A stretch of 44,402 nt of DNA from a virus: the IMG/VR virus record IMGVR_UViG_3300042893_001710, positions 1 through 44,402 of that record; one strand, given 5' to 3'. Positions within the stretch are counted from its first letter, which is position 1, and the number at the start of each line of letters is the position of its first letter. A program made the translations under genes and the position numbers. Positions 11,075 through 28,133 of this stretch are shown here, in pieces. Under the pieces are notes generated by a model, which was not told the DNA's origin, did not search any database, and saw nothing but the letters and a program-made list of their open reading frames with translations.

Positions 11075-11985
11075 AAAAATTCACAGTTGTGCATAGAGTT
11101 GATCTAAACAATGTTGGCGACTTGGCATCAAATCCATTGCAATATTTTTTAAATAGAGATGAGTATGATGTTGTTGATATTGTTGACATTGAGAAACAAT
11201 CGTACGACAGCACTTTGCCGCTGATCATTGGTGGCGGCGGATTGATCAACAATGATTTTTTTGGTGATACATTACGCAATCTGTTGATTTCTGCTGATTA
11301 CAGTCAATTGATGCAATTGTGGCAACAGCGTTGGACATTATGCAATTCAGCAAATGAAGATCTGCACTCAGAGTTCTTAGAACAATATCAACAGTTTATC
11401 AAACACTATGTAGACAAACTAAACACTACCAAAGCCAAACGTTTCCTTTGGGGAGTTGGGCACAATGGTGACGTCAATCGTAAAAAACCACAATCCGTAA
11501 CTTACCCGTCGTGGCTGAGTGATTTTGATTTGATTGGCGTGCGTGACTTTAAACAAAATTTGCCTTGGGTTCCTTGTGCCAGTTGCATGCATCCTGCATT
11601 GCATAAAAAATATGAAATTAAAAATGATGTCATTTGGTTTGAACATAAAAAACAAATAATCAAAGACTTTGGGAGTGACTCAATTCCACGCTTTGTGAAC
11701 TCAGGCAGTAATATTGATCAAACCATTGAATTGTTGGGTAGTGCCAATGTTATTTTAACCAATAGTTATCATGGAGCATATTGGGGTGCGTTGCTTGGCA
11801 AGAAAGTAATTGTAGTAGGTTCATGGAGTTCGAAGTTTTACTTGATGCGGCATCAACCTGTGCTTATTTCAGCCGATGACAACTGGAAAGCAGCAGTTGA
11901 CAAAAGTAAATTGTATCCAGATGCTCTAGACGAATGTGTTGCTGCAACAGAAAAATTTTGGAACAAAATTAAAGAACAAATATGA
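11071..11985 (+). CDS. Polysaccharide pyruvyltransferase-like protein
   Basis: This 304-residue protein resembles the polysaccharide pyruvyl transferase family, which adds ketal-linked pyruvate to sugars. Support comes from NVGDLASNPLQYF near the N-terminus, LIIGGGGLIN at about residue 52, FLWGVGHNGD, and NSYHGAYWGALLGKKVIVVG in the C-terminal part, where the SxHG motif is typical. It is coupled by ATGA overlaps to both flanking GT-B-like paralogs. A pyruvylated glycan would carry a negative charge; whether this acts on virion or host surface is unknown. Confidence 0.78.
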   Translation: MKKFTVVHRVDLNNVGDLASNPLQYFLNRDEYDVVDIVDIEKQSYDSTLPLIIGGGGLINNDFFGDTLRNLLISADYSQLMQLWQQRWTLCNSANEDLHSEFLEQYQQFIKHYVDKLNTTKAKRFLWGVGHNGDVNRKKPQSVTYPSWLSDFDLIGVRDFKQNLPWVPCASCMHPALHKKYEIKNDVIWFEHKKQIIKDFGSDSIPRFVNSGSNIDQTIELLGSANVILTNSYHGAYWGALLGKKVIVVGSWSSKFYLMRHQPVLISADDNWKAAVDKSKLYPDALDECVAATEKFWNKIKEQI

Positions 11986-24255: not shown

Positions 24256-24688
24256 ACTGACCATTGCCAATGAGATGAAGATGTTTGACCGCAAGGTCAG
24301 ATCATTCTACGACGACCTTACCGCAGAAGAAAAGAAAAAGTTTTCAAACTATCTCATGATACGCTGGGGCTCGGCAGTAGAAGGTTCAAGAGAATTGCAA
24401 GAGTTTTATGTGATTGCCACTAACGAAAGATTGAACAAACACTTCTTCAATGTAAGCAAACACCCAAAACTGCAATGGCTCATGGCCACTAGTGTAAGTC
24501 CAGATTTAGGATCGCAACGCCATCCTTGGATTGCTCCTAAGAAAAAACAAGCTGGCCTTAGTGCCAAACGCAAAGCACTAATGGCAATGTATCCACACTA
24601 TAAAGATGATGAGATAGATGTTATGGCAGCAATCACAACACAAAAAGAAATTGACGCATACAACCGCGCTGCCGGCAATGAAAAATGA
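24245..24688 (+). CDS. Possible clamp-loader small subunit (gp62-like)
   Basis: This 147-residue helical protein may be a divergent gp62, the small subunit of the gp44/62 sliding-clamp loader. The weak support is an LQWLMATSVSP...PWIAPKK stretch resembling the YLMAAVPRGKRYGKWAK region of T4 gp62, and a C-terminal helical MYPHYKDDEIDVMAAI segment as in aquatic phage versions. Neither gp44 nor gp45 lies in this window, so linkage does not help. It overlaps the next gene by 4 nt. Confidence 0.4.
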   Translation: MSDKLTIANEMKMFDRKVRSFYDDLTAEEKKKFSNYLMIRWGSAVEGSRELQEFYVIATNERLNKHFFNVSKHPKLQWLMATSVSPDLGSQRHPWIAPKKKQAGLSAKRKALMAMYPHYKDDEIDVMAAITTQKEIDAYNRAAGNEK

Positions 24689-25392
24689 TCCAGCAATTGG
24701 TTGTAAATGGATGCAGTTACACCCATTCTTATGCATTGGGCAATGGACACACTGATCTAGCACAGCGGTTAGGTATAACTCAAGCCAACAGCATTGCCAT
24801 CAGTGGCAGTGCCAACAGCAGGATACTGCGCACCACTCTCAAACACAGTTACACAGCACCTCCTACGCTGTATGTGTTGGGCATGACATTCCTTAGTAGA
24901 TTAGAAATACCCATCTGCGAACCAGAAAATGATTTTGAAGGACGATGGGTAAATCCGCAAAATCAAGAGTTTGCCTACAGATGGCAAACTGGCTGGAACC
25001 AAAAAGAGTCCGAGCAGTTTGTAGACACCAAACTCAAAACTGAAGTGTACAGCATTTTGGATCGTACTGAAGATCTCATGTACCGCATGCTCAGCACAAT
25101 TGACAGTTTGAAATCTAGAGGACATCGAGTGCTGATGTTTCAACAGGCTGATGATTTGTATCACAAATACCTAACAGATCCCAGATTGAGTTTGTTGAGT
25201 CGTCCAGAAATTGTCAATGGATATCGATGGCGAGCAACTGAATGGCAAGCAACTCAAGGTGTAGAACCCAAAAAGTACCCTCCAGGCTCGCCTTATGTTC
25301 CTCCGGATATGACACATCCGGCTATAGGTCACCACCACAAGCTCAATGAGTTCTTGACATCTTACATACAAGAGCATAAAATACTACAATGA
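24685..25392 (+). CDS. SGNH-hydrolase-like protein 2
   Basis: This 235-residue protein has the Ser block VNGCSYTHSY, an AISGSANSRILRTTL block and the C-terminal HPAIGHHHKLNEFL His block. The ISGSxNxRILRT pattern is shared with the gene at 26783, showing common descent. It overlaps the genes on both sides by 4 nt (ATGA). The last codons contain a perfect TTGACA promoter for the following gene. It may be an esterase or transferase acting on a glycan; the substrate is unknown. Confidence 0.62.
   Translation: MIQQLVVNGCSYTHSYALGNGHTDLAQRLGITQANSIAISGSANSRILRTTLKHSYTAPPTLYVLGMTFLSRLEIPICEPENDFEGRWVNPQNQEFAYRWQTGWNQKESEQFVDTKLKTEVYSILDRTEDLMYRMLSTIDSLKSRGHRVLMFQQADDLYHKYLTDPRLSLLSRPEIVNGYRWRATEWQATQGVEPKKYPPGSPYVPPDMTHPAIGHHHKLNEFLTSYIQEHKILQ
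25354..25382 (+). promoter_or_regulatory. Sigma70 promoter, leaderless geometry (TTGACA-17-TAAAAT)
   Basis: A perfect -35 TTGACA (25354-25359), 17 bp, -10 TAAAAT (25377-25382), and 6 nt to the ATG at 25389. It is encoded within the end of the SGNH-like gene. Confidence 0.8.
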
Positions 25393-26061: not shown

Positions 26062-26430
26062 ATGGCAACAGTAATATTTTTAACACTCATACTCTTACAG
26101 ATCAAACACTGGTATATTGACTTTGTGGATCAAAGCATGACGGAGGTCAATCACAAAGGCGTGTACGGACATTGGGTAGGCATGCGGCACAGTCTCAAAC
26201 AAGGTATTGGCACAGCCGTGTGTGTTGGTCTAGTGGTTGGTCCGGCCTATTGGCCAGCCAGCATAATAATGGGCGTGATAGATGCTGTGTCTCACTATCA
26301 CATTGATTGGGCCAAAATGAACTGGGGCAATAGAGACCTTCAGAATCCCAGCTTCTGGGCACACTTGGGCTTGGATCAGATGGCACATCAGTTGACTTAC
26401 ATTGGCCTTGTGGCTATAATTGCATTATGA
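26062..26430 (+). CDS. DUF3307-like membrane protein
   Basis: This 122-residue membrane protein has a His/Asp pattern (KHWYIDFVDQ, then GHWVGMRHSLKQG, DAVSHYHIDWAKMNWG and LDQMAHQLTYIG) typical of DUF3307, a family of phage and bacterial membrane proteins of unknown function. I see hydrophobic segments at about residues 1-14, 50-75 and 105-122. The conserved His and Asp near the membrane suggest metal binding. Its last codons hold the next promoter, and it overlaps the next gene by 4 nt. Confidence 0.75.
   Translation: MATVIFLTLILLQIKHWYIDFVDQSMTEVNHKGVYGHWVGMRHSLKQGIGTAVCVGLVVGPAYWPASIIMGVIDAVSHYHIDWAKMNWGNRDLQNPSFWAHLGLDQMAHQLTYIGLVAIIAL
26392..26420 (+). promoter_or_regulatory. Sigma70 promoter, leaderless geometry (TTGACT-17-TATAAT)
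   Basis: The -35 TTGACT (26392-26397) and perfect -10 TATAAT (26415-26420) are separated by 17 bp, with 6 nt to the ATG at 26427. Confidence 0.83.
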
Positions 26431-26786
26431 TTAGATCTATTAACGGCAGCAAATACATTCAAGTATCAGGTGGCATGTTCACCAATCCATACATCAGTCC
26501 AGGTGCAAGCGGAGCAGGCATGGTGCGGTGGAGTCCCAGCATGAACTGTTTGGAAATTAATGATGGCAACTCCTGGCAATCGCTTCACTCATCACATCCT
26601 ATGATTTCACTCTCATCAGACGCTGAAACCTTATTAGATTGGGCGCGAGCCAAGCGTGATGAAGAATGGCGCATTGCTGCCCTAGCAGCCAAGCATCCTA
26701 CAGTGGCAGATGCCTTGGCAGCAGTTCAACTGGCCAAAGAGAAACTACAAGTTGTGACTGCACTGTGTGATACTGATTCAAAATGA
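26427..26786 (+). CDS. Conserved hypothetical phage protein
   Basis: This 119-residue protein has an N-terminal beta-type region (GSKYIQVSGGMFTNPYISP, then GMVRWSPSMNCLEINDGNSWQSL) that looks like segments of phage structural or fibre proteins. The C-terminal part is helical and rich in Ala (about residues 70-115). No function is recognised. It overlaps the SGNH-like gene by 4 nt and is expected to have a leaderless transcript. Confidence 0.65.
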   Translation: MIRSINGSKYIQVSGGMFTNPYISPGASGAGMVRWSPSMNCLEINDGNSWQSLHSSHPMISLSSDAETLLDWARAKRDEEWRIAALAAKHPTVADALAAVQLAKEKLQVVTALCDTDSK

Positions 26787-27577
26787 GTGCAGACATTGAT
26801 TTTCCAATAGTGTATTGCAATGGCGATAGTTACAGTGATGAAAATTATTATCCAACATTAAAAAATCAAACCTATGCACATGTGGTCGGAGAGTATTTTC
26901 AGGGATTTGTAGTAAACAATGCAATAAGTGGCAGTTGCAATCGACGTATATTAAGAACTGCTGTTCATGATTTAACGCATCAAAGAACGTTAAATCCAGA
27001 TCAAAAAATAATTGCATTGATTGGATTATCATTTGAACTCAGAAGTGAAATATGGAACAATAATAAAATTCCACGCAACGAGTCTGAATCAAATTTTGAA
27101 ACTCACATTTTTACAGAAGAAATAAATTGGCGCAAAATGCTTCTAGCTGGCAAAGACATAGGATTGAAAAAAAACAAACATAGAATTGATCAAAAATTTT
27201 TTGACAAATACAGTCAAGGTCGTGCATACTACTACAGTCCTTATGCAGAGAGGACTAATCTTTTATGCGACTTAATGATGTTTCAGGCGCTGATGCAACA
27301 ACTAGACATACAGTTTTTAATATTTCAAGCGCCAATGGCTGAAAAACTAGAATCTGAATACCTACTTGACTTTTTTAAATCACATCTAAAAAGTGAAAAT
27401 TTCTTTGACTTTGAAACTTTTGGATTTGCACGTTGGTGCTGTCAACAAGGATTTGTTCCGTTGGATTTTAAAGATCGGCCCGACATTGCACACTATGGTC
27501 CAGATGCACATCGTGCATTTGCTGAACAAATTCTTATACCACATTTAGAAAAATATGAGCGCAGACATCGACATTGA
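26783..27577 (+). CDS. SGNH-hydrolase-like protein 3 (inserted before the DnaE-like gene)
   Basis: This 264-residue protein has the Ser block CNGDSYSDENYY, the block AISGSCNRRILRTAV shared with the gene at 24685, and a C-terminal DIAHYGPDAHRAFAEQIL His block. It reads clearly more AT-rich than its neighbours. Its first codons (MSADID) nearly repeat the first codons of the next, unrelated gene at 27555, which suggests it was inserted at that gene's start. It overlaps the next gene by 23 nt. Likely an esterase or transferase; substrate unknown. Confidence 0.62.
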   Translation: MSADIDFPIVYCNGDSYSDENYYPTLKNQTYAHVVGEYFQGFVVNNAISGSCNRRILRTAVHDLTHQRTLNPDQKIIALIGLSFELRSEIWNNNKIPRNESESNFETHIFTEEINWRKMLLAGKDIGLKKNKHRIDQKFFDKYSQGRAYYYSPYAERTNLLCDLMMFQALMQQLDIQFLIFQAPMAEKLESEYLLDFFKSHLKSENFFDFETFGFARWCCQQGFVPLDFKDRPDIAHYGPDAHRAFAEQILIPHLEKYERRHRH

Positions 27578-28133
27578 TGTGCCGGATAGAACGGCGGTGT
27601 TGAAACTGATTCAACACACTGCCGCACGGCAACTGCATCAAGGTCAAGTGCGTAAACACAATTCGGGCATCTATATCACAGACATTCCACAGGACATACC
27701 CAACGGCTGTGCAGCCATAGACTATGAGTCAGCAGAACAGCGTGGATACTTCAAGATAGACCTGTTGAACATGAGTGTGTATCAGTTGATCCGTGATCCT
27801 GCACACTATGCAGAAATGTTAGCAGCCTCCCCGCCCTGGCACAGACTGTGGACTGACACTGTTTGGACCAGTCAGTTGGTGCATGTGGGCAATTACACAG
27901 ACTTGATGGTGTCCATGCAGCCAGATTCAATACCTAGAATGGCAGCATTTATTTCAGTTATCCGACCAGGCAAAGCACACTTGCAAAATCGTCCGTGGAC
28001 CGAAGTATTTGCCGAAGTGTGGAACGGGGATGATTCACGCGGATACACATTTAAGAAAAGCCACGCAGTTTCCTACGCGGCCCTTGTTGCCCTACACATG
28101 AATCTACTTAATCAAGACGCCGCACAAGTGTGA
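27555..28133 (+). CDS. Miniature DnaE-like (DNA polymerase III alpha-type) protein
   Basis: This 192-residue protein resembles the catalytic core of bacterial DNA polymerase III alpha, cut to small islands. ADIDIDVPDR (D6, D8) matches the DxD of the active site, FKIDLLNMSV (D69) matches the third Asp region, and MQPDSIPRMAAFISVIRPGK and FKKSHAVSYA match the finger segments. Cellular DnaE is over 1100 residues. Similar short proteins occur in aquatic T4-like phages. It cannot be a complete polymerase; it could be a regulator, a nuclease or a decoy partner. Its 3' end overlaps the antisense gene by 26 nt. Confidence 0.72.
   Translation: MSADIDIDVPDRTAVLKLIQHTAARQLHQGQVRKHNSGIYITDIPQDIPNGCAAIDYESAEQRGYFKIDLLNMSVYQLIRDPAHYAEMLAASPPWHRLWTDTVWTSQLVHVGNYTDLMVSMQPDSIPRMAAFISVIRPGKAHLQNRPWTEVFAEVWNGDDSRGYTFKKSHAVSYAALVALHMNLLNQDAAQV

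Follow-up and report, generated by a model that had tools for sequence, protein, structure and literature searches.

Copied start of a DnaE-like gene at the front of an SGNH-fold gene at a probable gene-exchange hotspot of large freshwater phages

Introduction

How do two adjacent, unrelated phage genes come to open with the same residues? The question is raised by a lake phage (IMG/VR record IMGVR_UViG_3300042893_001710), of which we analysed a stretch of 44,402 nt, referred to here as the window. In it, a gene for a putative SGNH-fold hydrolase is followed by a gene for a DnaE-like protein (Table 1), and their translations, MSADIDFPIVYCNGDS and MSADIDIDVPDRT, both start with MSADID. The original prediction, made when this resemblance was first noticed, was that the SGNH gene had entered at the start of the DnaE-like gene and left a copy of it behind, like a target duplication or a start-codon capture. 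Here we compare the junction with those of related phages.

Results

The two starts agree at 15 of 17 nt (ATGAGTGCAGACATTGA versus ATGAGCGCAGACATCGA), both mismatches falling in third codon positions, exactly as first described. Exact matches to ATGAGYGCAGAYATYGA occur twice in the window, only at these two starts, and a search allowing three mismatches added a single match, at 11355 on the other strand. A direct-repeat scan recovered a second pair after a shift of 6 nt, GACATTGATTTTCC at 26792-26805 and GACATTGATGTGCC at 27570-27583, with a spacing of 778 versus 772 for the first repeat. Because this pair is in register after the shift, the left copy reaches approximately codon 10, spanning ~29 nt and about ten codons of MSADIDIDVP minus one Ile-Asp unit (6 nt). 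Its first 17 nt are identical to the DnaE-like start of an insert-free relative (L003). When 415 other ATGA-start ORFs from related loci were compared with the DnaE-like start, the sole match of at least 10 nt was that in L209, itself at the junction, and the next best covered 9 nt. Judged by these comparisons, the resemblance of the two starts is beyond chance; synonymous-site matching of the two copies within genomes had few sites available. Another repeat pair of 14 nt (26768-26781 and 27601-27614) is probably fortuitous.

Table 1. Features of the window junction and examples of two recurrent cargo families from related loci
Feature	Position	Strand	Remarks
Upstream gene UP119, 119 aa	26427..26786	+	TGA stop 26784-26786 within the following gene's ATGA
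Left copy of the DnaE-like start (MSADI-DFP)	26783..26805	+	17 nt at 15/17, then to about codon 10 past a 6-nt deletion
Cargo gene with predicted SGNH/GDSL-hydrolase fold, 264 aa	26783..27577	+	~33% GC; TesA fold match; weak Pfam match to DUF6071
Right (functional) DnaE-like start, MSADIDIDVP	27555..27583	+	Other frame: YERRHRH and SGNH stop 27575-27577
DnaE-like gene, 192 aa, displaced resident	27555..28133	+	phrog_11778 'DNA polymerase'
Cargo of ~302 aa	L045:3096-4004		
Cargo of ~350 aa	L060:2955-4004		

According to its structure model (pLDDT 84.5, built on 29 relatives), the inserted gene codes for a putative hydrolase of the SGNH/GDSL fold. The best fold matches are GDSL esterases, E. coli TesA among them, with Z 10-12 over 150-170 aligned residues (for TesA, Z 12.1, rmsd 3.7 and 164 residues) and with Foldseek E-values that are weak taken alone; in the family alignment GDSYS and HYGPDAH are conserved and the GxND motif of block III is not evident. 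This one ORF makes up the whole insert, its GC content contrasting with the 44-49% of the flanks, and, as a single gene of differing base composition missing from close relatives, it resembles a moron. Pfam and PHROG searches yielded no match to a nuclease family in the insert. The gene lacks a stop codon of its own and crosses the DnaE-like start in another frame before terminating; the overlaps at both ends suggest that it relies on transcription of the operon. The displaced gene has relatives, annotated as DNA polymerase, in the jumbo phages PA5oct, RaK2, CBB and 121Q, and the N-terminal DIDID of its product resembles the catalytic Asp motif of DNA polymerase III alpha. A distant SGNH paralogue (24685-25392, 24.8% identity) lies ~2 kb upstream in the same operon.

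The check proposed with the original prediction was to look for relatives lacking the SGNH gene, in which the DnaE-like start should follow the upstream gene without a gap; such relatives exist. The DnaE-like protein, used as query in IMG/VR scans, had several hundred relatives, the best of which were taken to yield 165 distinct loci; UP119 directly abuts MSADIDID in 79 of them, with a 4-nt ATGA overlap in 78 of the 79 and in all 66 of an earlier set. The empty junction of L003 reads gattcaaaATGAGTGCAGACATTGACATTGATGTGCCG and that of the window gattcaaaATGAGTGCAGACATTGATTTTCC. Judged by identity, which reaches ~93% on the left and ~92% on the right, both flanks of the window insert belong with the empty-site clade. 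The 122-aa DUF3307-like gene and the 119-aa gene that occupy 26062-26786 in the window are each present or absent among relatives: L024 lacks the 119-aa gene, and in L210 and L235 the DnaE-like gene directly adjoins the gene preceding both.

Unrelated cargoes at this junction also follow remnants of the DnaE-like start. These stubs measure 22 nt in L276, 15 nt in L265, 11 nt in L115, 10 nt in L209, ~42 nt with a lesion in L270 and 99 nt in L227; that of L253 is partial, and the distant phages L293 and L296 have stubs too. In L276, ATGAGTGCAGACATTGACATTG soon meets an in-frame TGA, followed by a nuclease-family gene and a DnaE-like gene re-started as ATGAAAAAAGCAGACATAGAT, and in L265 ATGAGCGCAGATATT is followed by TAA and by cargo of the same gene family. 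L270 keeps nearly all of the first 12 DnaE codons (ATGAGCGCAGAgtatctatGATATTGATGTTGCTGATA) ahead of an HNH nuclease; the nuclease of L253 is 63% identical to it, and the left flank of L253 retains TATTGACTTTGCGGAT. The stub of L115 (ATGAGTGCAGA) is out of frame, ahead of a ~350-aa cargo; that of L209 (ATGAGCGCAG) is in frame. In L227 (2569-2790), as in the near-identical L228, L230 and L238, the stretch between two cargo genes holds a 99-nt pseudogene of the DnaE start fused to a 120-nt duplicate of the 3' end of UP119, which from its sequence is a clear illegitimate join. In L105, ~60 nt from the beginning of another cargo gene were left behind. Prefix copies of at least 10 nt occur in 5 of ~35 non-SGNH inserts at the hotspot, whereas of 415 other starts, scored from 9 nt upwards, 1 has such a copy (p ~1e-5, Fisher test with kinship ignored). 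Two top-scoring 'null' flanks of the stub scan (L227, L284) proved to be real stubs. Most cargoes have nothing more than ATGA by way of a stub, which weighs against the explanation that we prefer. An ORF-based scan had limited the copies to SGNH inserts, a view overturned when the left-junction scan found stubs elsewhere; the start of L099 (MSVVDKPNR) looked copied by eye, and the alignment gave no support.

Because insert-free junctions exist and stubs of the DnaE start precede unrelated cargoes, the direction of copying is, to judge from these sequences, from the DnaE-like gene, the SGNH start being its captured copy. That the SGNH gene entered at this start and left a copy is thus partly supported, by the empty sites and the stubs, although the copied start may predate arrival in this lineage: SGNH homologues beginning MSADIDFP do occur in other phages, always adjoining DnaE, so that the gene may have come with the copied start already in place. 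We consider it probable that the UP119/DnaE junction is a gene-exchange hotspot at which the old DnaE start was left as a stub that the SGNH gene now uses.

The start region would be kept because UP119 has no stop codon of its own, its TGA sitting in the ATGA of the following gene, a requirement that a retained stub of the old start meets automatically. In the window, the copied ATGA also provides the UP119 stop codon, a point absent from the original prediction. An NTGA start with the same overlap is found in 31 of the 38 inserts after UP119 (28 non-SGNH and 10 SGNH). The other upstream neighbour, UP223, ends with its own TAA or TGA, and the SGNH genes that follow it often start ATGG.

The SGNH family comprises 41 loci, nearly all beside the DnaE-like gene. 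Searches of the phage collection and of 84,980 genomes of bacteria and archaea (GTDB) found no relative of the protein, and hence no outside source; nor was a donor phage close to the window gene found, the best reaching 78% protein identity in the alignment. The conserved body starts at (D)FPLIYCNGDSYS, preceded by a variable part that gives starts such as MSADIDFP, MSADLDFP, MSADIDYP, MSADFP, MSADLNFP, MDFP, MEFP, MNLDFP, MQHP, MNDHP, MIKSFTESANVDHP and others. Bodies 88-91% identical in DNA (L189, L190, L192) carry three different starts (MSADIDYP, MSADFP and MIKSFTESANVDHP). On a tree of the body alone, MSAD starts are scattered, with 6 changes of which at least 5 are forced by well-supported branches, and their grouping as one clade is rejected (p 3e-94). 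As a sequence pattern, this scatter would reflect repeated capture or repeated loss; together with the differing starts on near-identical bodies, it implies that the SGNH 5' end has often been re-made. The MSAD start showed no clear dependence on the identity of the upstream gene (p 0.09).

The most serious alternative, which we regard as possible but less likely than not having happened, is that the family gained MSADIDFP once beside DnaE, that homologous exchange carried it here, and that MDFP, MQHP, MNLDFP and others are later losses. It accords with the nine SGNH genes with an MSAD start, which belong to several clades and all adjoin DnaE, and with starts that resemble worn MSAD starts (L179 ATGAATTTAGATTTTCC; L192 ...SANVDHP). 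However, it requires ~11 losses, counted on the tree, versus 6 changes with gains allowed; all nine copies retain AGY and GCA as in the DnaE start, although the same amino acids are variously coded elsewhere, and repeated stub formation is seen with other cargoes. The fusion may have arisen by capture in or near the window lineage instead of being inherited from an old fusion.

The idea of a target duplication fares worse. A transposon-like insertion with target-site duplication would explain the direct repeat that flanks the insert and the clean empty sites, but it is very unlikely given that the copies vary from 10 to 99 nt between cases, often with small deletions, that the single ORF of the insert comes without a transposase, and that a repeat scan of the window junctions found no inverted repeats at the insert ends. 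We give even less credit to convergence of the two starts under translation-initiation constraints in the operon. In its favour, synonymous constraint within the DnaE gene is particularly strong at codons 2, 3 and 5, which rank 10, 1 and 2 of 99; normal starts have GCA for Ala3 in 130 of 136 cases and ATT for Ile5 in 126 of 133. This conservation fits a shared target or recombination anchor, and translation initiation could also explain it. Nevertheless, 0 of 414 ATGA-start ORFs away from the junction match the DnaE start over 10 nt or more, the same comparison found no unrelated genes starting ATGAGYGCAGAYATT elsewhere in these phages, and truncated and out-of-frame stubs are not selectable as protein starts. 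An assembly artefact, conceivable in metagenomic contigs, can practically be dismissed because the arrangement recurs at 100% identity in at least three IMG/VR contigs (L081, L082, L083) from different metagenomes and has analogues in other phages.

All inserts (60 of 60) have a lower GC content than their own DnaE (median 35% versus 47%). Further cargoes found exactly at the junction are a distant SGNH family beginning MIVYSNSDSYG, radical SAM genes, arginine-deiminase-like genes (weak match), and EndoVII-type and HNH/NUMOD3 nucleases, among them those of L005 (Endonuclease_7, E 5e-14) and L253 (phrog_655, E 1e-46, with NUMOD3); the nuclease family of L265 is weakly assigned (phrog_314, E 0.002) and has no Pfam match. 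Two other cargo families, of ~302 aa (MIHIDFQGG) and ~350 aa (KINASG), recur here without convincing Pfam or PHROG match (Table 1). Nuclease or nuclease-like genes occupy the site in at least six lineages. Re-coding of the DnaE start, with ATA for Ile5, was seen in 4 of the 6 lineages that carry a nuclease and in 3 of ~163 others (p 2e-5, related phages being counted as independent here and in all codon-level counts and Fisher tests). ATA is an enrichment and not the strict nuclease signature that we had considered, as L210, L215 and L235 carry it without a nuclease. Two nuclease lineages and the EndoVII carriers have a DnaE start that is not re-coded, which also counts against our preferred explanation.

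Discussion

In the scenario that we favour, the UP119/DnaE junction serves a family of large freshwater phages as a hotspot for gene exchange. DNA coming in, either SGNH-type cargo or a homing nuclease gene, would be joined a short way into the DnaE-like gene at its 5' end and would bring, or re-join to, another DnaE start on its downstream side, while the former 5' end would persist as a stub straight after UP119. Retention of the stub would be favoured by the dependence of the UP119 TGA on the ATGA of whatever comes next. In the window, the stub would have been fused in frame, via a shared GATTTT-like sequence, to an SGNH gene of the native start type M-DFP-LIYCNGDSYS, which would thereby use the DnaE start. 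Such nucleases may drive the exchange through double-strand breaks at the 5' end of DnaE, a point on which we are evenly divided; the window insert itself has no nuclease, those of the site occurring in relatives only, which argues against this explanation.

Free-standing homing endonucleases of T4-like phages (seg/mob) carry out intronless homing (PMC2988022), and F-CphI is a homing nuclease of the EndoVII type (PMC6083498). The genes of such nucleases are located between conserved phage genes and spread when the nuclease cleaves an allele that lacks them (PMC2988022, PMC6083498). The junction studied here is similar in having optional genes between two conserved genes, beside a polymerase gene, with empty alleles and HNH/NUMOD3 and EndoVII-type genes at the same place in relatives. 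It differs in that the window insert is a putative SGNH hydrolase gene without nuclease and that the old start of the resident was left as a stub, now the start of the cargo. Nuclease genes mark the boundaries of exchange between phages (PMC10448857) and, likewise, mark here where neighbouring genes are swapped, whereas the mark in our case is a start-codon scar at the scale of a single gene. As with phage morons, AT-rich accessory cargo, a single AT-rich gene stands between two conserved genes and is missing in close relatives; unlike them, the window gene lies inside an operon with start/stop overlaps and took its start from the resident gene. ATGA overlapping gene pairs undergo termination-reinitiation (PMC6728339), and the same 4-nt overlap, with the upstream stop within the downstream start, is seen here, with the difference that it restricts which insertions survive, so that stubs are kept.

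The window would offer a readable record of the insertion and swapping of accessory genes within tightly overlapping phage operons. There, survival of a join depends on the placement of the upstream stop in the start of the following gene, a constraint whose scar can serve to detect such events from sequence alone. The record also connects gene exchange among large freshwater phages with a replication gene at which a homing site probably lies. More speculatively, and with clear reservations on our part, the catalytic-motif start of DnaE might be a standing homing target for which nuclease and cargo elements compete, each invasion leaving a stub and a new, sometimes re-coded, start, and cargo genes such as the SGNH gene repeatedly adopting the stub as their own. 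If so, stub takeover would be a route to new N-termini and translation signals for phage genes.

One further family deserves mention. L265, L276-L282, L284 and L292-L296 carry a nuclease-like gene (YIKQHNKT..YKGSGLYW), GIY-YIG by eye and with a weak PHROG match to homing endonucleases, which adjoins the DnaE 5' end even in very distant phages.
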